Virus record (IMG/VR): IMGVR_UViG_3300042563_001656
Span: 1 to 23,587 of that record
From: a virus
Length of the DNA: 23,587 nt
Reading direction: 5' to 3' (one strand)
Shown: piece by piece, positions 12,225 to 22,425 of the stretch
Layout of the letters: each line of letters starts with the position of its first letter
Numbering within the stretch: position 1 is the stretch's first letter
Translations under genes and position numbers: made by a program
Notes under the pieces: model-generated
Seen by the model: the letters and a program-made list of their open reading frames with translations, nothing else
The model's database searches: none
What the model was told of the DNA's origin: nothing

Positions 12225-13078
12225 GTTTTAAGATAGGAATCGTTGGATTAGGATACGTGGGCGGTGCGGTATTAAACGCATATGCACTAAAAAACCGCAA
12301 GGTACACACATTTGATGTTAATCCAAAAACAAACCCATCATGTAAATCTTTACAAGAATTGGTGGAGTTAGTTGATTTGATATATGTTGCTGTGCCAACG
12401 CCGATGAAATCTTCGGGTGAATGTGATACATCCATTGTTGAATCGGTAGTAAATGATATTGGTAAAAGTAAAACCACAAAACTAATAGTCATAAAATCTA
12501 CAGTACCTCCTAAGACAACGGAACGATTGCAAGATATGAATCATAAGCATGTCGTAATGTTTAATCCAGAGTTTTTAACGGAAGCAAATTATAAAAATGA
12601 TTATTTGAACCAAGATGTTATGTTATTAGGATATTGTGGATGGGTGTGGAGAGACATTGCATTCGATGTACTAACCGAAATTAAAAGTACGGTAGATTCT
12701 GTTAAATATGCTGCAGCGGTTGGAGCAACTGACGCGGAATTTTACAAATATGTATGCAATACATTTCTTGCTACGAAAGTATCATTTGCCAACGAAATGG
12801 AATCCATTGCCCGTGCAATGAACGTGGATTGGGAAGTTGTGCGAGAAACATTGCCGTTTGATTCTCGTGCGGGTAAATCGCACTGGCAAGTTCCGGGTCC
12901 AGACGGTCGCAGGGGATATTCTGGGTCATGTTTTCCAAAGGATATCTCTGCCATTCGTCACGTAGCAAAATTGCTAAATATACCCACTCCCGTATTAGAT
13001 TCTGTGTGGAATCGCAATATTACCATAGACCGACCAGAAAAGGATTGGGAACAATTAAAAGGTCGTGCAGTTTCTTAA
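12221..13078 (+). CDS. Short nucleotide-sugar dehydrogenase (UDP-glucose/GDP-mannose dehydrogenase family)
   Basis: This 285-residue enzyme would oxidise a nucleotide sugar such as UDP-glucose to its uronic acid with NAD+. It has an N-terminal Rossmann motif GLGYVGG (G9, G11, G14), the STVPPKTT and MFNPEFLTEA motifs, a catalytic-helix region KYVCNTFLATKVSFANE (K177, N180, K186), and the nucleophile C237 in GYSGSCFPKD. It stops soon after the central domain, so the third, sugar-nucleotide-binding domain of the roughly 400-450 residue cellular enzymes is absent, as in some other phage versions. I choose ATG 12221 over 12215. AAGGAG lies 8 nt before 12221 but only 2 nt before 12215, and 12221 makes an ATGA overlap with the polymerase gene. 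Its likely role is capsule, LPS or virion-associated sugar modification; the substrate is unknown. Confidence 0.88.
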   Translation: MSFKIGIVGLGYVGGAVLNAYALKNRKVHTFDVNPKTNPSCKSLQELVELVDLIYVAVPTPMKSSGECDTSIVESVVNDIGKSKTTKLIVIKSTVPPKTTERLQDMNHKHVVMFNPEFLTEANYKNDYLNQDVMLLGYCGWVWRDIAFDVLTEIKSTVDSVKYAAAVGATDAEFYKYVCNTFLATKVSFANEMESIARAMNVDWEVVRETLPFDSRAGKSHWQVPGPDGRRGYSGSCFPKDISAIRHVAKLLNIPTPVLDSVWNRNITIDRPEKDWEQLKGRAVS

Positions 13079-13099
13079 ATGCATAACCCCCACGGAAGT

Positions 13100-13128
13100 T
13101 TGATGGTTGTTTGACGGCGTTGTATAAT
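13100..13128 (+). promoter_or_regulatory. Sigma70-type promoter before 13169 gene
   Basis: A -35 box TTGATG (13100-13105), a 17-nt spacer and a perfect -10 TATAAT (13123-13128) lie in the gap after the dehydrogenase gene. The spacer region includes an 11-nt spaced duplication, GTTTGATGG and GTTTGACGG (13098 and 13109). A small hairpin, AAGGT/ACCTT (13138-13153), lies in the predicted leader. The box match is strong and the position suits an early or middle phage transcript recognised by host polymerase. Confidence 0.7.
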
Positions 13129-13168
13129 ATTTATAAGAAGGTTGTTATACCTTTAATGGATGTTATAT

Positions 13169-13567
13169 ATGAATCATGACGCACAATTATTATGTACATT
13201 CACTTCTGTAAACGAATTAGAAAATACCATTGATACTATAAAAAATTCATATACCTTAGTTTTCAATAAATTATATTTACTGGAAAATGTTGCAGATACA
13301 AACCAGTTGGTATTAACGTATAATATTACAAACGCAAACACAAATGTAGTACCACCGGCATCCACCATTTCGGTGCACAGAAAGAAACAAACGAATACAA
13401 TTTATACAATAAATGCAATTAATAAATTGATTGAAATGAAAAATAATGGCGTATTAGATAAATCCTTTCGTATTAATTGGGAAGAATTAAAAAATTCAGT
13501 ATTAGTTACTGCATATGGAAAATTGAAAGTGGTAAATACAAAATTATCAGATATTATTGAATTATAA
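13169..13567 (+). CDS. Conserved unknown small protein of the replication block
   Basis: This 132-residue protein has no function I can assign. It is rich in Asn, Thr and Ile, with alternating strands (LVLTYNITNANTN; HRKKQTNTIYTINAINKLI) and a C-terminal section, INWEELKNSVLVTAYGKLKV. I recall similar small proteins in T4-like aquatic phages, but the family is unnamed. ATG 13169 is preferred over the in-frame 13160 ATG because the recognisable sequence begins at AQLLCTFTS and GGA lies 8 nt upstream. Neither start has a strong ribosome binding site. A better candidate (AAGAAGG, 13135-13141) is too far upstream and partly in a small hairpin. It has its own promoter and stands just before the SSB promoter, so it is probably expressed with replication functions. 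Confidence 0.7.
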   Translation: MNHDAQLLCTFTSVNELENTIDTIKNSYTLVFNKLYLLENVADTNQLVLTYNITNANTNVVPPASTISVHRKKQTNTIYTINAINKLIEMKNNGVLDKSFRINWEELKNSVLVTAYGKLKVVNTKLSDIIEL

Positions 13568-13577
13568 TATTTACCCC

Positions 13578-13606
13578 TTGACAAACTAAGGTCAGCCCAC
13601 TACCTT
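13578..13606 (+). promoter_or_regulatory. Promoter of gp32-like SSB gene
   Basis: A consensus -35 TTGACA (13578-13583) is followed after 17 nt by TACCTT (13601-13606) as the -10. The -10 is weak, which may imply an activator or regulated use. Its spacing and flanking inverted repeat are the same as at the recombinase promoter (14471-14499), and that correspondence is the main support. Confidence 0.65.
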
Positions 13607-13618
13607 TATAAAGTGGGC
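13595..13618 (+). promoter_or_regulatory. Inverted-repeat operator over SSB gene -10
   Basis: GCCCACT (13595-13601) and AGTGGGC (13612-13618) form a perfect 7-bp inverted repeat around the -10 region. The same half-sites, GCCCACTA and GTGGG with the same 10-nt centre, recur at 14488-14510. Because the predicted transcription start falls at or near the right arm, a DNA operator is more likely than an RNA hairpin. Confidence 0.55.
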
Positions 13619-13666
13619 ACTAAACTCACTAAACAAAACATTCTAAACACTAAGAGGTACACACGT

Positions 13667-14464
13667 ATGGGAATTAACATCTCAGCACTCAAATCGAAAC
13701 TCAACCAGTTTACTCGTCAGAACGACCGCACAGACGCACTCTGGAAGCCCACGGAAGGAAAGACGGTTATTCGCATTGTTCCGTGGAAGGACAACAAGGA
13801 AAATCCCTTCGTTGAATTATATTTTCATTATCTTGGCAACAAGACACATCTTTCCCCCACCTCAAACGGCAACCGTGATCCTATTGTAGAATTTGCCGAT
13901 GCGTTGCAGGCAGGTGGTTCTAAGGATGATTGGATGCAGGCACGTCCATTCCGTCCAAAGCTCCGTACATTCGTTCCTGTCATCGTTCGCGGCGAAGAAG
14001 AGAAGGGCGTTCGTTTCATGTCGTTCGGTAAGATTGTATACACGGAATTGTTGTCGATTATCTCCGATCCTGATTATGGTGACATTACCGATGTGCAGAA
14101 CGGTCGGGATGTTGTGGTGGAGTATATTCCACAGGAAAAGAGTGATACTAACTTTGCAAAGACAATGGTTCGTCCAAAGCCAAATCAAACGCCGTTGGCC
14201 GATTCTCCCGAGAAGATTCAGAAGTTTCTTACGGAACAACCTGACATTCGTTCAATTTTTAAGGAACCTACCTACGAAGAATTGAAGGTTGCACTGGAAC
14301 GCTATCTTGATCCCGATGCAGCAAAGACTGCGCCAGTTGCTGCTCCCATCAAGGAAGTATCAATTGTTAATCCTACCTCTCCAACGGCAGTTAAATCCGT
14401 GGAACTTAAGTCAAAATCAGTCAAGGATATGGTTGACGAATTTGACGATGTATTTAATAACTAA
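13667..14464 (+). CDS. gp32-like single-stranded DNA-binding protein
   Basis: This 265-residue SSB of the T4 gp32 type coats single-stranded DNA and coordinates helicase, recombinase and polymerase. It has a basic N-terminal section (SALKSKLNQF), an OB-fold-like core with WKPTEGKTVIRIVPW (26-40), LYFHYLGNKTHLSP and DPIVEFADAL (71-80), and an acidic C-terminal tail (KDMVDEFDDVFNN) of the sort used for partner contacts. ATG 13667 is chosen over an upstream in-frame ATG at 13613 because AAGAGG lies 9 nt before it and the family N-terminus starts here; 13613 falls inside the promoter palindrome. The protein contains no cysteine, so the zinc ribbon of T4 gp32 is absent. Codon use leans to AAG for Lys and CGT for Arg, unlike the virion genes, consistent with high expression. 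It is directly followed by a promoter for the recombinase. Confidence 0.85.
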   Translation: MGINISALKSKLNQFTRQNDRTDALWKPTEGKTVIRIVPWKDNKENPFVELYFHYLGNKTHLSPTSNGNRDPIVEFADALQAGGSKDDWMQARPFRPKLRTFVPVIVRGEEEKGVRFMSFGKIVYTELLSIISDPDYGDITDVQNGRDVVVEYIPQEKSDTNFAKTMVRPKPNQTPLADSPEKIQKFLTEQPDIRSIFKEPTYEELKVALERYLDPDAAKTAPVAAPIKEVSIVNPTSPTAVKSVELKSKSVKDMVDEFDDVFNN

Positions 14465-14470
14465 AATCAC

Positions 14471-14499
14471 TTGACTTTACTTGCGTGGCCCACTATATT
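14471..14499 (+). promoter_or_regulatory. Promoter of UvsX/RecA-like gene
   Basis: The -35 TTGACT (14471-14476), a 17-nt spacer and the -10 TATATT (14494-14499) lie in the 78-nt gap before the recombinase. The layout matches the SSB promoter base for base in spacing. Confidence 0.72.
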
Positions 14500-14512
14500 A
14501 CTATGGTGGGTC
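14487..14512 (+). promoter_or_regulatory. Inverted-repeat operator over recombinase gene -10
   Basis: GGCCCAC (14487-14493) and GTGGGTC (14506-14512) make an inverted repeat with one mismatch (a G-T wobble if in RNA). It shares GCCCACTA-N10-GTGGG with the SSB operator at the same distance from the -35 box. It is probably bound by a common regulator of the replication genes. Confidence 0.55.
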
Positions 14513-14542
14513 ATTCACGTTATTATACTATAGGAAAATATT

Positions 14543-15685
14543 ATGACAAAAATAGATAAAAAAGTTATTCAAGAACCAGATCGTGATGAACTGGCCCAAC
14601 TCATTGCAGAGTCTTTGAATAAAATGAATAAGGACAGCGATCAAGTTGCATTTTTTCTTGATGGCCGTGAATCAACGCCAACCGACTTTACAGACTTTGT
14701 TTCTACGGGAGCAACGATGTTGGATGTAGCAATTAGTAACCGTCCGAACGGTGGAATTGCTGTTGGTCGGATTACCGAGTTGACCGGTTTAGAGGGGTCA
14801 GGAAAGAGCCTGATTGGGGCACAGTTGATCGCAAACACACAGTTAAGGGGTGGAGTAGGGGTGCTTATTGATACCGAAACTGCGGTCAATGCAGAGTTCT
14901 TTAAGGCAGTCGGTATTGACATGAATAAGTTGGTATATGTGCAGTTACAGACGGTTGAAGAAATCTTTGATGCAATCACCGTTATTATTGAAAGTGTTCG
15001 GAAAGATCCCAAGAAGCGAGATAAGATTGTTACCATCGTCGTAGATTCTGTAGCAGCTGCATCCACGAAGAAGGAAATGGAAGCAGACTTCGGTAAGGAT
15101 GGATATGCCACTGATAAGGCCATTATCATTAGCAAGGCAATGCGTAAGATCACGGGCCTTCTTGGTCGGGAACGAATTGCACTAGTGTTCACCAATCAAC
15201 TCCGTCAGAAGATGAATGCAATGGCGTTCTCTGACCCGTGGACAACTTCGGGCGGTAAGGCTATTGCATTCCACGCATCAACTCGTCTTCGATTGTCGTT
15301 GCTCGGTAAGATTAGTAATTCCAGCGGTGATGTGATTGGTGTGAAGGTGAAGGCAAATGTTGTGAAGAATCGTCTTGGACCGCCACATCGCATGGCAGAA
15401 TTTGAAATTTACTTTAATCGTGGCATTGACGATTTGGGTAGTTGGTTGAAGGTACTGAAGGAAAATAAACTTATCAAGCAGGCAGGTGCATGGTATGCTT
15501 ATGTCGATCCGGTTACGGGAGAAGAAACGAAGTTTCAATCCAAGGACTTTCAAGGATTCTTAGATGCAGATCCTATTCGAAAGCAAGTACTCTACAGTGA
15601 AATTTGTGATTCATTGATCATGAAGTATCAGAGTGAATTTGATCCTGAAGATGTGAGTATTTCAACGGCAACTGAAGATGAATAA
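14543..15685 (+). CDS. uvsX: UvsX/RecA-like recombinase
   Basis: This 380-residue strand-exchange ATPase forms filaments on single-stranded DNA for recombination-dependent replication and repair. It shows Walker A GLEGSGKS (82-89), a RecA-like VLIDTETAVN segment (107-116), Walker B VTIVVDS (163-169) and the L2 region FTNQLRQKM (216-224) followed by TTSGGKAIAFHASTRL, which parallels RecA's NQ...GG.AL.FYAS.R. The sequence around L2 is closer to bacterial RecA than to T4 UvsX, although the position next to gp32 and gp41 homologues is that of UvsX. AGGA lies 7 nt before the ATG. It has its own promoter and operator. Its stop overlaps the next gene by 8 nt. The acidic tail (STATEDE) could contact partners. 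Confidence 0.93.
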   Translation: MTKIDKKVIQEPDRDELAQLIAESLNKMNKDSDQVAFFLDGRESTPTDFTDFVSTGATMLDVAISNRPNGGIAVGRITELTGLEGSGKSLIGAQLIANTQLRGGVGVLIDTETAVNAEFFKAVGIDMNKLVYVQLQTVEEIFDAITVIIESVRKDPKKRDKIVTIVVDSVAAASTKKEMEADFGKDGYATDKAIIISKAMRKITGLLGRERIALVFTNQLRQKMNAMAFSDPWTTSGGKAIAFHASTRLRLSLLGKISNSSGDVIGVKVKANVVKNRLGPPHRMAEFEIYFNRGIDDLGSWLKVLKENKLIKQAGAWYAYVDPVTGEETKFQSKDFQGFLDADPIRKQVLYSEICDSLIMKYQSEFDPEDVSISTATEDE

Positions 15686-15947
15686 TCCAGAAGATATTGT
15701 GCAGATTGCATTGTCTGCGTATGATAAGTCATGGATTGGCATCCCCTCAGTGAATATGGTCGCTGGCCGTCGTGACGATTTCGAATTAGAACTTCGCCGG
15801 TTGTTAATGCAAACATCTTCTGTCAAGAAGGAACACGCCTATACGATTACTCCACCAAACTTGATGGGCACATGGACCACTGGTGGCACCCAAACAAGTG
15901 CTATGGGTATTCCACCCGCTATTAAACCAGAAATTTTACATGGCTAA
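15678..15947 (+). CDS. Small unknown protein between recombinase and 5' nuclease
   Basis: This is an 89-residue ORF that I do not recognise. It overlaps the recombinase gene by 8 nt at its start and the nuclease gene by 8 nt at its end, the tight packing expected of a real gene. The N-terminal half is helical and charged (PEDIVQIALSAYDKSW; FELELRRLLMQTSSVKKEH). The C-terminal half is Gly/Thr/Pro-rich and probably flexible (LMGTWTTGGTQTSAMGIPP). No cysteine or enzyme motif is present. Co-translation with UvsX-like and 5' nuclease proteins suggests a small accessory factor of recombination or replication, which is inference only. Confidence 0.65.
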   Translation: MNNPEDIVQIALSAYDKSWIGIPSVNMVAGRRDDFELELRRLLMQTSSVKKEHAYTITPPNLMGTWTTGGTQTSAMGIPPAIKPEILHG

Positions 15948-16983
15948 TCTGCAAGATATTTTTCACAATATGAAGTTTGAAGAAGACCCGCAAGGCATGA
16001 CATATAATAGTCGGGTATTGTTGGTTGACGCAATGAATTTATTCATTCGTTCGTATTCTGCAGTACCTTCAATGGACGACGATGGAAATCACATTGGGGG
16101 TATGATTGGATTCTTTAAGAGTTTAGGTCTTGCCATTCGCACGTTTAAACCCACCCGAACCATCATTGTGTTTGATGGAAAGGGTGGGAGCCAAAGTCGC
16201 AGAAAGATTTACCCGCAGTATAAGGCAAATCGTAAACCGCCCGTTCGATTGAACCGGAGTTATGATTTAACGACGGATGAACAAGAAAAAGAAAATATGA
16301 AGTGGCAGTTGGTATCATTGGTTGAAATGCTGGAATGTTTACCCGTTACTATTTTTGCATTGGACAATGTAGAAGCAGATGATGTGATTGCCTATCTATC
16401 ACAATTGGTTACGGCAGACGGTGGGGATAGTATTATTTATTCTACCGACAAGGATTTCTTTCAACTTGCCGCAGAAAATATCAAAATCTATAATCCTATC
16501 AAAAAGAAAACATTTAGTGACCAAGTAATCTTGGAAGATTATGGCATTCATCCTAAACATTTTCATTTCTTTCGTGCATTAGATGGTGATAAGAGTGATA
16601 ATATTGATGGAGTAAAGGGTGTGGGAGAAACTAATCTAAAAAAGTATCTTCCAGAAATTGCGGACCCAACGGCAGAAATTTCGGTAGACATGATTCGCAA
16701 TAAATATGCAAATATAAAGAAGGTTCCAAAAATGATTGAGAACATTCTGAATAATGAAGATATAATTGAACGAAATATTACATTAATGAACCTCCATGAA
16801 AGTATTATGTCTATTGATGCTAAAATGAAGGTAGTCAATAGATTTCAGACGACATCGACTTCATTGCGGAAGGTAGACTTGACAAAGTTGATGATGAGAT
16901 CGCGCCTGCTGGGGAGTTTTTCTAATTATGACGACTGGCTAGCTCAAAATTTCATCCCATTGAGTCGGTTTCATACTGGATAA
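15940..16983 (+). CDS. 5'-3' exonuclease / flap endonuclease (T4 RNase H-like)
   Basis: This 347-residue nuclease of the FEN/Pol I 5'-nuclease family would remove RNA primers and flaps on the lagging strand. Metal-binding acids are visible in order: D30 in LLVDAMNLF, D79 in IIVFDGKGG, E145/D147/D148 in NVEADDVI, D170/D172 in YSTDKDFF, and D217/D220 in LDGDKSDNI. The helix-three-turn-helix DNA-binding motif follows as GVKGVGETNLKKYL (224-237). The arch basic residues (SRRKIYPQYKANR) are present. ATG 15940 is used because it overlaps the preceding stop and gives a normal family length. A frame extension to 15883 adds unrelated residues translated over the upstream gene. It ends just before the structured RNA element at 16998. 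With no 5' nuclease domain on the polymerase-like gene, this supplies that function separately. Confidence 0.93.
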   Translation: MANLQDIFHNMKFEEDPQGMTYNSRVLLVDAMNLFIRSYSAVPSMDDDGNHIGGMIGFFKSLGLAIRTFKPTRTIIVFDGKGGSQSRRKIYPQYKANRKPPVRLNRSYDLTTDEQEKENMKWQLVSLVEMLECLPVTIFALDNVEADDVIAYLSQLVTADGGDSIIYSTDKDFFQLAAENIKIYNPIKKKTFSDQVILEDYGIHPKHFHFFRALDGDKSDNIDGVKGVGETNLKKYLPEIADPTAEISVDMIRNKYANIKKVPKMIENILNNEDIIERNITLMNLHESIMSIDAKMKVVNRFQTTSTSLRKVDLTKLMMRSRLLGSFSNYDDWLAQNFIPLSRFHTG

Positions 16984-16997
16984 TGATATTTATAGGA

Positions 16998-17106
16998 GTC
17001 GGAAAGATGTTCGTGGCATTTTCCGACACATAGTAAGTCTATCCCCTATGAGTATGCATTAGGTGCCACGAACACCTATCGTCAGAAAGTAGGGGATTTC
17101 TTTTTT
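16998..17106 (+). ncRNA. Candidate structured RNA with kissing loops
   Basis: Hairpin A has an 8-bp stem GTCGGAAA/TTTCCGAC (16998-17005 with 17020-17027), a bulged G, a 3-bp cap ATG/CAT and a 7-nt loop TTCGTGG (17010-17016). Hairpin B has a 6-bp stem TAGGTG/CACCTA (17060-17065 with 17073-17078) and a 7-nt loop CCACGAA (17066-17072). The two loops are exact reverse complements, and the complementarity extends to 10 nt (17009-17018 with 17064-17073). Hairpin B is enclosed by an 8-bp stem ATCCCCTA/TAGGGGAT (17041-17048 with 17090-17097), which is followed by a T-rich tract. This predicts a loop-loop pseudoknot in cis. I cannot match it to a known RNA family. It lies between the 5' nuclease and a homing endonuclease gene. 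Confidence 0.6.
17041..17106 (+). terminator. Rho-independent terminator-like stem and U tract
   Basis: The 8-bp stem ATCCCCTA/TAGGGGAT, with hairpin B inside it, runs straight into TTTCTTTTTT (17097-17106). This would end transcripts of the 5' nuclease operon. The ribosome binding site of the endonuclease gene (GGAG, 17107-17110) starts at the next base, so read-through past this element could control that gene. Confidence 0.65.
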
Positions 17107-17116
17107 GGAGAATCGC

Positions 17117-17824
17117 ATGGAATCTATATATTACGTGTACGCACATTATATTCCCGGTAGTTCTGATCCATTTTATATAGGCAAGGGAAAAAAACACCGT
17201 GCATATAGCACAGCATCTAGAAATTATTTATGGCACACCGTCGTCGCTAAGTATGGATATGATGTTGTCCTATTATATGAGGGGCTATCGCACGAAGACG
17301 CGTTGCGTAAAGAAGAGGAACTAATAAAACATTACGGTAGAAAAAATACCGGAACTGGTGAACTAGTAAACCTAGTCGATGGTGGTATTGGGTTTGTCTC
17401 GTTAGTTAGACGCCCCCATTCGATAGAAACAAAAAAGAAAATGTCGGATAGTCATAAAGGAAAAAAGTTTTCAGACGAGCATAAACATAACATATCAACC
17501 GCAAATAAAGGAAGGCTTATTTCAAAAGAACAACGAGTTGGAATGAAATCCCGTTTAGCATCGCGATGGACAACTCATAGAACTGAGATGTGCATGGCCG
17601 CAGTCGCCGGTTGGACGGAGCAACGTAAATTGGAAGTATCGGCGAGACTGACCGGAACCTCACATTCCACGGAAACCAAGAAGAAAATATCCAATAAACT
17701 AACCGGCATTGTTCGTCCCGCGTCAACCAGGAAGAAAATATCGGATACTAAAAGAAAACAACACCTTGACAAAAAACACCCGCGGGTGTATACTGATACA
17801 GACAACGCCAGTGAGGCAGAATGA
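17117..17824 (+). CDS. Free-standing GIY-YIG homing endonuclease
   Basis: This 235-residue selfish nuclease is expected to cut a specific site in related phages lacking it and to spread by repair. The N-terminal GIY-YIG domain reads IYYVYAHYIPGSSDPFYIGKG (residues 4-24; the YVY and YIG at 20-22 are the name motifs). It is followed by an arginine at 28 and an acidic helix, EDALRKEEELI, holding candidate catalytic glutamates. The rest carries four NUMOD3-like DNA-binding repeats (about 99-115, 116-132, 181-197, 198-214), each with the pattern S.ETKKK(M/I)S. ATG 17117 has GGAG 6 nt upstream. Its C-terminal codons contain the helicase promoter, and its stop overlaps the helicase ATG. Both neighbours look intact, so it is not within an obvious intron. 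Its target is probably a nearby replication gene. Confidence 0.9.
   Translation: MESIYYVYAHYIPGSSDPFYIGKGKKHRAYSTASRNYLWHTVVAKYGYDVVLLYEGLSHEDALRKEEELIKHYGRKNTGTGELVNLVDGGIGFVSLVRRPHSIETKKKMSDSHKGKKFSDEHKHNISTANKGRLISKEQRVGMKSRLASRWTTHRTEMCMAAVAGWTEQRKLEVSARLTGTSHSTETKKKISNKLTGIVRPASTRKKISDTKRKQHLDKKHPRVYTDTDNASEAE
17766..17794 (+). promoter_or_regulatory. Consensus promoter with palindromic spacer before helicase
   Basis: A perfect -35 TTGACA (17766-17771), exactly 17 nt, then TATACT (17789-17794) lie within the last codons of the endonuclease gene. The spacer holds a perfect 14-bp palindrome, ACACCCGCGGGTGT (17776-17789). It could be an operator. Its half-site differs from the GCCCAC repeats at the SSB and recombinase promoters. 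Confidence 0.78.
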
Positions 17825-19206
17825 CAACACAGCATGATACGACGGTAGACACGTTAACAAAATTTGGAAGCGTATTTCAAGCAAAAGTATTAGCAAATTT
17901 ATTGTCATCTACAGAATTCCTACAGCAATCATTAGATGTATTAAATCCTAAATTCTTTGAATCGAATGCGGGGCAATGGATTGTTGATACGACGATTGAT
18001 TATTTTGCCGATTACAAGTCATTGCCGACATTAGAAGTTTTCAAGGTTAAGTTGGATTCGGTGAATGATGAGGTGTTGAAGATTGCGATCAAGGATCAAT
18101 TGCGATCCGCATTCCAACGAAAGAACGACGACGATTTGGAATATATCCGTGACAGTTTTCTAGATTTCGCAAAGAATCAAGCAATTAAATCGGCAATTAT
18201 TCGATCCGTCGATTTGCTGCAGATTGGGCAATATGGCGAAATTAAGAATTTGATTGATGGGGCGATGAAGGCAGGACAGCCTCGTAATATTGGACATAAT
18301 TGGAGAGACGATATTGGTATTCGATTATCGGGTATTTCTCGTATCGTTGTTCCTACGGGATGGGATTCTGTAGATCAGTTGATTGGCGGAGGATTGGGGG
18401 CAGGTGAACTGGGCGTTATCGCTGCTCCTTCTGGTATTGGCAAGAGTTGGGCGCTTGCCACGATTGGAGCAAATGCAGCAAAGGCCGGAAAACGAGTGGT
18501 GTATTATACATTGGAATTAAATGAGAATTATGTTGGACTTCGATACGACACTATTTTCACGGGCATTGAACCTGGAAATGTACCCAATCACCCAGAAGTT
18601 GTAAAAGAAGCAGTTGCGGGAGTAACCGGTGATATTATCATTAAATATTATCCCGCACGTTCCATTACCGTGCATACAATTCGGGCACATCTTGACCATC
18701 TTGTAAGTAATAAATTAAAGCCCGATCTAATTTTGATTGATTACGCAGATCTCATGCGATCAGTAGATCGTATAGAAGCACGACATCAAGAACTTGGAGC
18801 AATTTACGAAGAAATACGTGGTATGTCCGGTGAGATGGGTATTCCCTGTTGGACTGCTTCACAAACGCAACGCAGTAGTATTCAAGACGATGTAATTCAA
18901 GCAGACAAGATTGCCGAATCCTATCAGAAAATTATGACGGCTGACTTGGTAATTTCATTGTCGCGTAAACTGGAAGATAAAGCAAATCATACTGGTCGAG
19001 CACATATTATGAAAAATCGGTTTGGCGTCGATGGTGTAACACTGCCTGTGTATATGAATACTGGTCTTGGAAAGATTGAAATTTATGATGAAAATTCTTC
19101 CAAGGGCATTCTGTTGAAGAAGCAAATGCAGGCGGGAGAAGGAATGTTAAAAAAGACTCTTGCAAAGAAATTATCTGAACTCCACGATGATTTTTCGGAG
19201 GAGTGA
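17821..19206 (+). CDS. dnaB: Replicative DNA helicase (DnaB / T4 gp41 family)
   Basis: This 461-residue hexameric helicase would unwind the fork 5' to 3'. After an N-terminal helical domain (residues 1-150; LLSSTEFLQQSLDVLNPKFF) comes the RecA-like motor. It shows GWDSVDQLIGGGLGAGELGV (180-199), Walker A APSGIGKS (202-209), the catalytic glutamate in YTLELNE (E232), Walker B LILIDYADL (303-311; D307) and ASQTQR (346-351). A basic stretch, AHIMKNRFG, near residue 400 should hold the arginine finger. Length matches T4 gp41 (about 475). GAGG lies 4 nt before the ATG, which overlaps the endonuclease stop. A consensus promoter sits 27 nt upstream, so it can be expressed independently of the selfish gene. 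No intein interrupts the P-loop, although phage helicase genes of this type often carry one. Confidence 0.93.
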   Translation: MTTQHDTTVDTLTKFGSVFQAKVLANLLSSTEFLQQSLDVLNPKFFESNAGQWIVDTTIDYFADYKSLPTLEVFKVKLDSVNDEVLKIAIKDQLRSAFQRKNDDDLEYIRDSFLDFAKNQAIKSAIIRSVDLLQIGQYGEIKNLIDGAMKAGQPRNIGHNWRDDIGIRLSGISRIVVPTGWDSVDQLIGGGLGAGELGVIAAPSGIGKSWALATIGANAAKAGKRVVYYTLELNENYVGLRYDTIFTGIEPGNVPNHPEVVKEAVAGVTGDIIIKYYPARSITVHTIRAHLDHLVSNKLKPDLILIDYADLMRSVDRIEARHQELGAIYEEIRGMSGEMGIPCWTASQTQRSSIQDDVIQADKIAESYQKIMTADLVISLSRKLEDKANHTGRAHIMKNRFGVDGVTLPVYMNTGLGKIEIYDENSSKGILLKKQMQAGEGMLKKTLAKKLSELHDDFSEE

Positions 19207-19256
19207 GTGATAATTATTAGAACCAACGAACCCAAACCGCTCGGAGATTGCCCGAA

Positions 19257-20540
19257 ATGCAGCTAGAATCAAAATTATTGTCGGAAATTACGACATTTAT
19301 GAAGTACGCAAAATACGTGCCAGATAAGCAACGTAGAGAAACATGGACAGAGTTAGTTGATAGAAATAAGAACATGCATCTAGAAAAGTTCCCTCAGTTG
19401 AAAGAGGAAATTGATGCCGCATATAAATTTGTATATGATAAGAAAATCCTCCCCTCTATGCGTTCCTTGCAGTTTGCGGGAAAGCCAGTTGATTTAAACA
19501 ATACTCGTTTATACAATTGCTGTTTTCTTCCCGTAGACCACAGTGATGCATTCAGTGAAATTATGTTCCTATTGTTGTCGGGAACTGGTGTGGGATATTC
19601 CGTACAACGTCAGCACGTAGAAAAGCTCCCAGAAATTAATAAACCAACCAAGTCTCGTCGTTACCTTGTTGCGGATAGCATCGAAGGATGGGCAGATGCC
19701 GTGAAGGTGTTAGTGACTGCTTACATGAAGGGCAAGGCGTATCCATTGTTTGACTTCCGCGACATTCGTCCAAAGGGTGCAATGTTGATTACGGCCGGTG
19801 GAAAAGCACCCGGCGCGGAACCGTTGAAGGATTGCTTGCATAATATCCAAAAGGTATTAGACCGCAAGGCAAACGGTGAACAACTCACCACACTGGAAGT
19901 GCATGACATTATGTGTTATATTGCCGATGCGGTATTGTCGGGCGGTATTCGTCGGTCGGCAATGATTGCGTTGTTTAATTTGGACGACGACGATATGTTG
20001 ACTTGCAAGTTCGGCAACTGGTGGGAGAATGAACCACAACGTGGTCGTGCAAATAACTCTGCGGTGATTGTTCGTCACAAGATTGAAAAGGAAATCTTCC
20101 TTGACTTGTGGAAGAAGATTGAATTAAGTGGTTCTGGTGAACCTGGGTTCTTCTTTACGAATGATGCAAGTTGGGGACTGAATCCATGTTTGACAGGAGA
20201 CTCCATAATCACAGTCAAAGATCACGACACCACCGCCGATAGCATAACAATTGCTGAAGGTGGGATATATCAAATTCCGTTAAAGCAACTTGTGGAACTT
20301 TATGAAACCAGTACTCTGCCACCCATGATTCTTTCATATAATACAGAATTGAAACAGTTGGAATGGGATATGTTGGACAACGCAGCACTTACTCGCGAGA
20401 AGGCGTCCATTATTGAGTTGGTACTTGATAGTGGTGAGACTCTCAAACTTACCCCTGACCACAAGGTATTTACCGAAAATCGTGGTTGGGTGGAGGCGGC
20501 CCAACTGACAGAAGAAGATATTTTGTTAACAATTAAATAA
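19257..20540 (+). CDS. nrdJ: Class II ribonucleotide reductase, N-half fused to split intein-N
   Basis: This polypeptide is a 310-residue N-extein plus a 117-residue intein-N, ending at a normal stop. The extein is the N-half of an adenosylcobalamin-dependent (class II) reductase, which makes deoxyribonucleotides for phage replication. Visible segments are the redox cysteine region LYNCCFLPVD (C88/C89), GTGVGYSVQ (109-116), SGGIRRSAMIALF and GEPGFFFTNDASWGLNP, which ends just before the radical cysteine. The intein starts at TGT 20187. ATG 19257 is preferred over TTG 19248 because CGGAG sits 10 nt before it and 1 nt before the TTG; a TAG at 19218 closes the frame. It is not a pseudogene, because the C-half follows at 21373 with matching intein-C. 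Activity requires trans-splicing with that product. Confidence 0.94.
   Translation: MQLESKLLSEITTFMKYAKYVPDKQRRETWTELVDRNKNMHLEKFPQLKEEIDAAYKFVYDKKILPSMRSLQFAGKPVDLNNTRLYNCCFLPVDHSDAFSEIMFLLLSGTGVGYSVQRQHVEKLPEINKPTKSRRYLVADSIEGWADAVKVLVTAYMKGKAYPLFDFRDIRPKGAMLITAGGKAPGAEPLKDCLHNIQKVLDRKANGEQLTTLEVHDIMCYIADAVLSGGIRRSAMIALFNLDDDDMLTCKFGNWWENEPQRGRANNSAVIVRHKIEKEIFLDLWKKIELSGSGEPGFFFTNDASWGLNPCLTGDSIITVKDHDTTADSITIAEGGIYQIPLKQLVELYETSTLPPMILSYNTELKQLEWDMLDNAALTREKASIIELVLDSGETLKLTPDHKVFTENRGWVEAAQLTEEDILLTIK
20187..20537 (+). other. Split intein, N-terminal fragment (117 aa)
   Basis: The fragment starts with the nucleophile Cys1 in CLTGDSIITV (block A). Block B is near its end, as GETLKLTPDHKVFTENRGW with T89-x2-H92, the residues that assist the first acyl shift. 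It closes with LTEEDILLTIK and a stop. No endonuclease domain is fused to it. Length and layout match split inteins of the gp41-1/NrdJ-1 type known from ocean metagenomes. Confidence 0.93.
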
Positions 20541-20552
20541 CATATGGGTTGT

Positions 20553-20598
20553 TTCCCCACAATACACACTACTTATAGGTAGAACCTATTGTGGGGAA
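20553..20598 (+). promoter_or_regulatory. Hairpin covering the nuclease ribosome binding site
   Basis: TTCCCCACAATA (20553-20564) and TATTGTGGGGAA (20587-20598) form a perfect 12-bp inverted repeat with a 22-nt loop, which itself can form CTAC/GTAG. The right arm contains GGGGA (20593-20597), the only good ribosome binding site for the ATG at 20603. In a transcript running through from nrdJ the site would be paired and translation repressed. T4 genes such as I-TevI use this logic. There is no T tract, so it is not a standard terminator. Confidence 0.75.
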
Positions 20599-20602
20599 CA
20601 TT

Positions 20603-21412
20603 ATGTTAGATTTGAATACATTATATTGTAAGTTTATAGAGTTAAAAGAATGTTCCAATATTCGTGACGAATGGAAAGACGAATATAGAGAGTTTTTTAA
20701 AGAACAATATAAACTGTATGGAAATGGTGCTAGAGGATTTGTAAAAAAATCGTTCGTAAGAAAAAAACTTACAGAAGTATACCCAGATGAATGGTTATAT
20801 TTTGTATCTACCTTACAATCCAAATATGAATTTGATGGCGTAGGATTAAAGTTGATGGCAAGGGAAATTGGAATTAGTTATACAAAAATGCGTAGACTAC
20901 TGGAATATACAGGAATACCCATTCGTAAAGGATATTCCGTAGTTACTGAACACTTGAGAAAGATTAGACGCGCAAACGCTATAGCATCGGGTGGTTGGAG
21001 AAACAAAAAAACAAAAAATAAAAATACCGAACGGGGTGTTCAGGGATATTTCTTTAATCAATCTAAACAAAAATATGTATGGCTTCGGTCAACCTATGAA
21101 GTTATTTTAGCAAAGTGGTTAGATAAGAATAAAATGAACTGGGCAGTAGAATCACAGCAATGGATGATAGGAACCGAATCATACAGACCAGACTTCTTCA
21201 TTTACGAAAATAATGAACTTGTAAAGATAATAGAAGTTAAAGGATATTATAAAAATAGATTGTGGAAGTTTGATGAATTAAAAAAAGAACCATCTCTCCA
21301 AAATGTTGAGTTTTGCTTAATAGACAATATAACTCCGTTTTTGGATGGAAATACATACTTAGGAGAATTAAAATGGTGGAAACAAAACAGATTATTAAAG
21401 CTAGAATCGTAA
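20603..21412 (+). CDS. PD-(D/E)XK-type homing endonuclease inside fractured nrdJ
   Basis: This 269-residue nuclease lies between the two intein halves. An N-terminal region with a helix-turn-helix candidate (GLKLMAREIGISYTKMRRLL, 81-100) precedes a C-terminal nuclease core. The core has STYEVILAKWL with E166, YRPDFFIYE with D197 and IIEVKGYY with E211 and K213, the acidic-Lys pattern of PD-(D/E)XK and Vsr-like folds. Nucleases in this position of fractured genes are known from ocean metagenomes and are thought to cut intein-free alleles so the intein is copied. The ATG has GGGGA 5 nt upstream inside a hairpin. A GTG at 20591 is in frame but lies within the stem. Lys codons are almost all AAA and the gene is AT-rich, unlike the flanking exteins, indicating separate ancestry. 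Its end overlaps the intein-C start by 40 nt. Confidence 0.85.
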   Translation: MLDLNTLYCKFIELKECSNIRDEWKDEYREFFKEQYKLYGNGARGFVKKSFVRKKLTEVYPDEWLYFVSTLQSKYEFDGVGLKLMAREIGISYTKMRRLLEYTGIPIRKGYSVVTEHLRKIRRANAIASGGWRNKKTKNKNTERGVQGYFFNQSKQKYVWLRSTYEVILAKWLDKNKMNWAVESQQWMIGTESYRPDFFIYENNELVKIIEVKGYYKNRLWKFDELKKEPSLQNVEFCLIDNITPFLDGNTYLGELKWWKQNRLLKLES

Positions 21413-21501
21413 AAAAGACAGTCCGGGAAAATGAAGATGTGTATGATTTGACTGTAAGAAAGAATCATAACTTTTTTGCAAACGGATTATTGGTGCATAA
21501 T
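21373..21501 (+). other. Split intein, C-terminal fragment (43 aa)
   Basis: Block F is VYDLTVRKNHNFFANG (23-38) and block G is LLVHN, with penultimate His42 and terminal Asn43. The +1 extein residue is Cys. All residues needed for branching, Asn cyclisation and splicing are present. The charged first ten residues suit electrostatic association with intein-N. Confidence 0.94.
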
Positions 21502-22425
21502 TGCGCCGAAATTTCGTTGCGTCCATTTCAATTCTGCAACCTCTGCGAAATCAATGCGTCGGATATTATTGACCAAGACGATTATAATGCACGGGCAAAG
21601 GCAGCCGCATTTATCGGAACGTTGCAGGCAAGTTACACCAATTTCCATTATCTCCGTGATATCTGGAAGCGCACTACTGAACGTGAAGCGTTGATTGGTG
21701 TTGGTATGACGGGCATTGCATCTGGGGCGGTGTTGAAATTGGATATGAAGGAAGCCGCAAATGTGGTGAAAGCAGAAAACGAACGAATTGCTGGCATGAT
21801 TGGTATTAATAAGGCTGCTCGGACAACAACGGTGAAGCCAAGTGGTACTTCTTCATTGGTATTAGGTTCCTCTTCGGGTATTCATGCGTGGCATAATGAA
21901 TATTACATTCGTCGTATTCGCGTGGGCAAGAATGAAAGCATTTACACATATCTGCTGATTAATCATCCAGAACTGTTGGAAGATGAATACTTCAAGCCAA
22001 ACCAACAGGCTGTTATCTCGGTTCCACAGAAGGCTCCGGTGGGAGCGGTAACTCGCCAAGAAACCGCATTAGACTTACTTGCACGCGTGAGTAAGGTGTG
22101 GAAGGAATGGGTCAAGCCTGGTCATCGTAAGGGTGAAAATAAGAACAATGTATCTGTCACCGTAACGATTAAGCCAAATGAATGGGAAGAAGTTGGGGAA
22201 TGGATGTGGGCAAATAAGGAAAATTTTACCGCGCTAAGCGTTTTACCCCATTCGGAGCATACCTACATTCAAGCGCCGTTCGAAGACATTGCACCAGAAC
22301 ATTACGAAGAATTAGTTGAGCATCTTCATAATATTGATTTAAGTCAGGTGGTGGAGTTAGATGATGCCACCGATTTATCGGGGGAAGTGGCCTGCGGCGG
22401 CGCCGGCGGGTGTGAGGTGGTATGA
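21373..22425 (+). CDS. nrdJ: Split intein-C fused to class II ribonucleotide reductase C-half
   Basis: This polypeptide is a 43-residue intein-C plus a 307-residue C-extein. The extein begins CAEISLRPFQFCNLCEIN. Joined to the N-half it restores NPCAEI, the active-site N/C/E triad, and the second cysteine 11 residues on has the spacing of C408/C419 in Lactobacillus leichmannii RTPR. Further class II features are VGMTGIASG, the phosphate-binding VKPSGTSSLVLGSSSGIHAW and a C-terminal CGGAGGC that can act as the thioredoxin-linked redox pair. ATG 21373 has AGGAGA 6 nt upstream. The start and ribosome binding site lie inside the end of the nuclease gene in another frame. The spliced enzyme would be 617 residues, shorter than RTPR (739). 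The glycosyltransferase ATG overlaps its stop. Confidence 0.94.
   Translation: MVETKQIIKARIVKKTVRENEDVYDLTVRKNHNFFANGLLVHNCAEISLRPFQFCNLCEINASDIIDQDDYNARAKAAAFIGTLQASYTNFHYLRDIWKRTTEREALIGVGMTGIASGAVLKLDMKEAANVVKAENERIAGMIGINKAARTTTVKPSGTSSLVLGSSSGIHAWHNEYYIRRIRVGKNESIYTYLLINHPELLEDEYFKPNQQAVISVPQKAPVGAVTRQETALDLLARVSKVWKEWVKPGHRKGENKNNVSVTVTIKPNEWEEVGEWMWANKENFTALSVLPHSEHTYIQAPFEDIAPEHYEELVEHLHNIDLSQVVELDDATDLSGEVACGGAGGCEVV

Follow-up and report, generated by a model that had tools for sequence, protein, structure and literature searches.

We identified a conserved RNA element in which the 7-nt loops of two hairpins are fully complementary to each other, located directly ahead of homing endonuclease genes and carried with them on a mobile insert. 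The element was found in a 23,587-nucleotide stretch of a T4-like phage (IMG/VR record IMGVR_UViG_3300042563_001656), hereafter the window. Four diverged relatives preserve the pairing of the loops through matched mutations, and the element is therefore a real conserved RNA. On balance, and with some reserve, we favor reading the insert as a homing cassette that brings its own promoter, a terminator or attenuator with kissing loops ahead of the nuclease gene, and an exit promoter serving the operon that it splits.

Table 1. Features of the insert and its surroundings, in window coordinates.
Feature	Position	Strand	Remarks
Stretch present only in the filled allele	16898-17819	+	Replaces 77 nt of the exonuclease 3' end relative to the empty phage
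Diverged exonuclease 3' end	16898-16980	+	14 synonymous and 7 non-synonymous codon changes relative to the empty allele (21 in total)
TATTTATA (TAYTTATA), promoter-like	16987-16994	+	Conserved in 5/5 copies
Hairpin 1	16998-17027	+	Kissing loop UUCGUGG, 17010-17016
Terminator-like hairpin	17041-17097	+	Outer stem 17041-17048/17090-17097
Hairpin 2, nested in the terminator-like hairpin	17060-17078	+	Loop CCACGAA, 17066-17072, partner of loop 1
U tract	17098-17106	+	Present in all homologues too
GGAG Shine-Dalgarno of the endonuclease gene	17107-17110	+	Outside both main stems
Free-standing homing endonuclease gene	17117-17824	+	235 aa, GIY-YIG type by similarity
Putative dnaB exit promoter, in the endonuclease gene	17766-17794	+	TTGACA-17-TATACT, 11/12 sigma-70-like consensus
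DnaB-like helicase gene	17821-19206	+	PHROG 19, E 1e-73; parted from the exonuclease gene by the insert

Structure and covariation of the kissing-loop element

Hairpin 1 consists of an 8-bp lower stem (GTCGGAAA/TTTCCGAC), a bulged G at 17006, and a 3-bp upper stem (ATG/CAT) closing the loop TTCGTGG. Hairpin 2, with a 6-bp stem (TAGGTG/CACCTA), is enclosed by the terminator-like hairpin, whose 8-bp outer arms (ATCCCCTA and TAGGGGAT) are followed by TTCTTTTTT and whose internal loop (UAUGAGUA/GAAAGUA) appears to be loop-E-like. The GGAG of the endonuclease gene comes after the U tract, with which it is predicted to form a weak local hairpin. A preliminary description of this DNA had reported the complementary loops and the nesting of the second hairpin in a stem that ends in a U tract, and we found both where it had placed them. 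It had also noted that complementarity extends beyond the loops, which is so, the length being 11 nt (TGTTCGTGGCA at 17008-17018 with TGCCACGAACA at 17064-17074) rather than 10 nt.

The 109-nt RNA had a predicted folding energy of -36.4 kcal/mol (z = -4.65), which none of 200 shuffles equaled. Loosely defined kissing hairpins were common in shuffled sequence, and a 10-nt inverted repeat with a spacing of 25-80 nt occurred about twice per shuffled window. Under a strict criterion, requiring both loops to be exactly 7 nt and fully complementary and the stems to be at least 4 and at least 6 bp, dinucleotide shuffles yielded 138 pairs in 8686, or 0.016 per window. Rarity on its own is only suggestive for a feature picked out post hoc; the observation is real because four homologues carry compensatory changes, and the shuffle rate alone would not decide it.

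The homologues were found in IMG/VR contigs. Together with the window type (also in L002-L004), they make up five distinct sequences, the others being L298 (the same as L295 and L296), L299 (the same as L297, L301, and L302), L304 (the same as L303), and L300; pairwise identity of the element among the five is 61-84%. Since L002, L003, and L004 are identical to the window cassette, they provide no covariation. The first two diverged copies (in G020 and G016) came to light, via the terminator half, when the element was compared by BLAST with complete records of related phages, and a pattern built from these copies brought in further homologues. The pattern did not include hairpin 1, its loop, the upstream motif, or the downstream gene. 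The CCCCTA/TAGGGG stem and the TATRAGTA/GAAAGTA internal loop are invariant among the five sequences, an invariance that is not independent evidence because both stood in the search pattern.

All 35 cells of the kissing helix (7 pairs in each of five sequences) are Watson-Crick pairs, in the plain MAFFT alignment as well as in the model-fitted one, and two-sided changes are present in 4 of the 7 pairs. For the whole structure in the model-fitted alignment, 93.5% of the cells are paired and 14 of 31 pairs show two-sided changes; 0 of 500 shuffles reached the observed values, and moving the partners by 1-3 columns left 36-52% paired. Several compensatory pairs are present in each of three helices, namely those of the two hairpins and the kissing helix. 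The search for homologues with compensatory changes that had been proposed earlier, carried out here on five independent sequences, came out in favor of the structure. From the model-fitted alignment, RNAalifold recovered both hairpins as well as the terminator stem, a result that leans toward the structure because the alignment was fitted to it. Both hairpins have 7-nt loops and G-C closing pairs in 5/5, although the upper stem of hairpin 1 in L299 is poorly formed past the closing pair. The two hairpins of L300 show a joint switch of their second pair from T-A to A-T, and loop-loop complementarity reaches past the loops, to 9-11 nt, in 5/5. The GC-rich stem is followed directly by a U-rich tract, as in an intrinsic terminator, in every copy.

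No Rfam 15 family was detected in the whole window at gathering or permissive thresholds (best match at chance level, E 2.1). BLASTN of the element together with L304, L298, and L300 against 50,697 phage records gave no real match, and the genomes of bacteria and archaea, scanned with two patterns, gave 0 matches. Such an element was not found in the literature searched, which took in few subscription papers. A looser viral scan returned L329-L331, which were false positives.

Five marine viral contigs (L305:9277, L306:11626, L308:2098, L309:9331, and L311:8135) contain a hairpin with the internal loop TATRAGTAAG/CTGAAAGTA and a conserved GCCCTGTT loop, which is not in Rfam. These were not accepted as members, as no complementary upstream loop was seen and the best model score was 27 bits; in the three inspected (L308, L309, and L311), the hairpin is intergenic and no adjoining endonuclease gene was found. 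Resemblance of the internal loop (UAURAGUA/GAAAGUA) and the kissing architecture to tertiary-structured RNAs, and the presence in these contigs of the internal loop only, could suggest a leader responding to a ligand or a protein, whose binding site would be made up of the kissing complex together with the loop-E-like internal loop. This is quite unlikely in our view, given that there is no ligand or protein candidate and that the internal loop is invariant partly because it stood in the search pattern.

A mobile insert and recurrence of the element at four gene junctions

The empty phage L204 matches the window with 100% identity over 12940-16897 and again from 17820 on, and lacks the stretch between. 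In relatives free of the endonuclease gene, the exonuclease and DnaB genes overlap or sit a few bases apart. The diverged tail of the exonuclease gene has its nearest match in the L213 lineage (68%) and is what co-conversion during homing would leave behind; it is probably a co-conversion tract from another phage lineage. The endonuclease gene matches PHROG 314 homing endonuclease (E 2e-27) and NUMOD3, and its TGA overlaps the ATG of DnaB. A group I intron carrying an endonuclease gene was considered and rejected, as there is no Rfam match in the window and the endonuclease gene reaches the right end of the insert.

The five elements are spread over four gene junctions, each a short distance ahead of an endonuclease or endonuclease-like start, and the endonuclease genes differ among the cassettes. 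In the distant phage L300, the element accompanies a different endonuclease at the same exonuclease/DnaB junction. The L299 element lies ahead of a SpoU-type methylase gene, at a junction where both genes abut in a relative, so that it is insert-borne there too; the L304 element is ahead of a metallophosphoesterase-like gene, and the L298 element is behind a UvdE gene. Identity among the endonucleases is 26-52%, for the most part covering only portions of the protein, and because they diverge far more than the element does, the RNA is under constraint of its own. The element belongs to the mobile insert. At L298:5294-6927, a tandem pair of endonuclease-like genes stands behind a single kissing-loop element.

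The preliminary description had offered protection of an mRNA 3' end as one role for the RNA. Located after the stop codon of the host gene and ending in a U tract, the element could protect the mRNA of the upstream gene, terminated or processed near 17106. We regard this as very unlikely, since the upstream genes vary (exonuclease, a 113-aa protein, a lipoprotein-like protein, and UvdE), the RNA moves with the endonuclease gene, and the empty relatives are without it. The link to a homing endonuclease gene, also noted in that description, stands. Beyond it go the element's place in a mobile insert, its recurrence at other sites beside different endonucleases, the TAYTTATA conserved upstream, and the putative exit promoter.

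Promoter-like motifs and proposed control of the endonuclease gene

The distance from the end of TAYTTATA to loop 1 is 13-17 nt in 5/5. In the relative G009, genes are preceded by TAYTTATA 10 times, where 0.82 would be expected (about 12-fold), and by its reverse complement TATAAATA once. Within the window, a hairpin at 20553-20605 (a 12-bp inverted repeat, 20553/20589) covers the start region of a second endonuclease-like gene and holds TAYTTATA (TACTTATA) in its loop; T4 late endonuclease promoters are likewise placed in a hairpin covering the gene start region (PMC2988022). On account of this enrichment ahead of genes and the T4-like placement in a hairpin loop, we read TAYTTATA as a probable promoter of this clade, late-type by analogy with T4, and it is probably the cassette's own promoter. 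Against the late class, a virion-structural match was obtained for only 1 of 8 tested genes behind TAYTTATA, and four relatives yielded no clear homologue of sigma-70 region 2. The motif could also pair with TATRAGTA (8 pairs in 5/5, with one-sided changes only), which may be a coincidence of two conserved motifs.

Other occurrences were noted. A further intergenic TATTTATA lies at 13128-13135, ahead of a 135-aa gene at 13160, and in L010, L016, L028, and L039, motifs of the TATAAATA or CATAAATA type lie between inverted-repeat arms that reach the endonuclease start region, as in T4. Elsewhere in the window, the ribonucleotide reductase gene (19248-20540, 20603-21412, and 21313-22425) is interrupted by an intein split into two frames with an endonuclease-like gene between them, and a 123-aa frame at 1624-1995 is made up of imperfect repeats of the type (Y/F)KGM(A/S)VSG(S/T/A)PL.

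At the other end of the cassette, the 3' end of the endonuclease gene carries TTGACA-17-TATAYT in 4/5, a motif that is read as a putative exit promoter for the downstream gene. Three of the four cassettes other than that of the window have TTGACA-17-TATATT at the endonuclease stop codon, the TGA lying inside TTGACA. In G009, TTGACA-(16-18 nt)-TATAAT-like boxes occur 19 times on both strands, compared with about 2 per strand in shuffles. The spacer of the exit promoter contains a perfect palindrome, ACACCCGCGGGTGT at 17776-17789, which could be an operator.

In the cassette reading that we favor, the left end would bear an RNA control element, with hairpin 2 enclosed by an intrinsic terminator stem and its loop kissing that of hairpin 1. 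Read-through RNA from the split operon (exonuclease to dnaB) would fold into this structure and polymerase would halt just before the endonuclease start codon, so that less endonuclease would be made; the kissing pair may stabilize the terminator and tune termination. TAYTTATA, directly ahead of hairpin 1, would act as the cassette's own promoter, and the exit promoter would serve the downstream gene, mending the damage to the operon. Among the roles offered earlier, that of an attenuator to curb read-through into the endonuclease gene has the best support, termination being predicted from the stem and U tract. The stem holds a large internal loop and a hairpin, unlike a classic short-loop terminator. 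Because the putative promoter lies upstream of the terminator, expression of the endonuclease would need leakiness, antitermination, or a polymerase that ignores the terminator.

Transcripts started at TAYTTATA would lose only part of the 5' arm of hairpin 1, and this raises the possibility, which we rate as doubtful though worth stating, of a promoter-selective switch, a termination version of the I-TevI/SegB logic. Read-through RNA, with the full 5' arm, would present loop 1 for kissing and termination; in RNA started at TAYTTATA, with a partial arm, the 9-11-nt loop-1 strand would invade hairpin 2 and open the terminator, allowing late endonuclease expression. Predicted energies of hairpin 1 are -11.9 to -17.2 kcal/mol for read-through RNA and -3.6 to -7.9 kcal/mol for motif-started RNA, weaker in 5/5, and the long helix of 9-11 bp is the predicted minimum in all five nascent motif-started transcripts. 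The extended complementarity and the joint change in L300 also fit such a rearrangement. However, 3/5 nascent read-through transcripts also have the long helix at the minimum or no more than 0.1 kcal/mol from it, which counts against promoter selectivity; moreover, the completed terminator wins in every case (folding without pseudoknots), and the transcription start was assumed from T4 spacing. The earlier proposal that the RNA could change between a kissing complex and a longer helix is possible. It would be a rather unlikely, tentative step to propose an undescribed, horizontally moving RNA family that gives endonuclease cassettes a promoter-selective kissing-loop switch, by which read-through is stopped while late-promoter transcripts rearrange and pass.

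The promoter-like motif, the two stable hairpins, and the U tract also delimit a discrete unit, which could be a stable sRNA of about 107 nt running from the TAYTTATA start to the U tract, with loops that may act in trans or dimerize. The 50-kb contig G020 carries a diverged copy of the element and a second filled copy of the window cassette, and the differing loop sequences of its two elements would suit such a role. By contrast, the element is always directly ahead of an endonuclease start, as a leader would be, and no target is known, making an sRNA unlikely. A leader peptide (ATG TTC GTG GCA TTT TCC GAC ACA TAG, 17007-17033, with a Shine-Dalgarno-like GGAG) was rejected, as L300 has TAG at the start and L299 and L304 are without proper spacing.

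Relation to known systems

An endonuclease cassette of this kind, in which an entry motif, a conserved terminator with loops kissing within one RNA, and an exit promoter accompany varied endonuclease genes, would illustrate how a selfish gene can enter essential operons and do little harm, and it would be a compact natural system for testing loop-loop control of termination. ColE1 RNA I and RNA II form loop-loop complexes through fully complementary 7-nt loops; there, the pairing is between two RNAs, whereas here the 7-nt loops pair within one RNA. To our knowledge, the described cases in which RNA structure restrains phage homing endonucleases are RBS-sequestering hairpins or simple terminators.

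Among the former are the leaders of I-TevI, I-TevII, I-TevIII, segB, and Aeh1 mobE, in which transcripts from a nearby late-type promoter miss part of the structure (PMC2988022). If TAYTTATA is a late promoter, its transcripts would likewise miss part of hairpin 1. In those leaders, the RBS is sequestered in a hairpin, whereas here GGAG lies outside the main stems (PMC2988022). The seg43 gene of Aeromonas phage 25 likewise has a stable hairpin directly upstream of the endonuclease RBS that does not cover it; that case involves one hairpin of unknown effect, and the present one two kissing hairpins and a U tract (PMC2988022).

The closest parallels are T4 mobE and segF, which have terminators at their 5' ends, where about 30% of mobE transcripts end (PMC2988022), and whose downstream genes are served by promoters inside or beyond the endonuclease gene (review by Edgell, Gibb, and Belfort; PMC2988022). 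As in mobE and segF, a free-standing endonuclease gene lies in a split operon with an intrinsic terminator, recognized here from its sequence, at its 5' end, and, as in mobE, a promoter for the downstream gene, here putative, is near the 3' end of the endonuclease gene (PMC2988022). Judged in the same way, a terminator-like structure is present in 5/5 of our cassettes and a putative promoter for the downstream gene in 4/5. The terminators of mobE and segF are inside the coding region, whereas the element described here precedes the start codon; and whereas no kissing hairpin has been described for those genes, the present cassettes have a conserved two-hairpin unit common to different endonuclease genes (PMC2988022).
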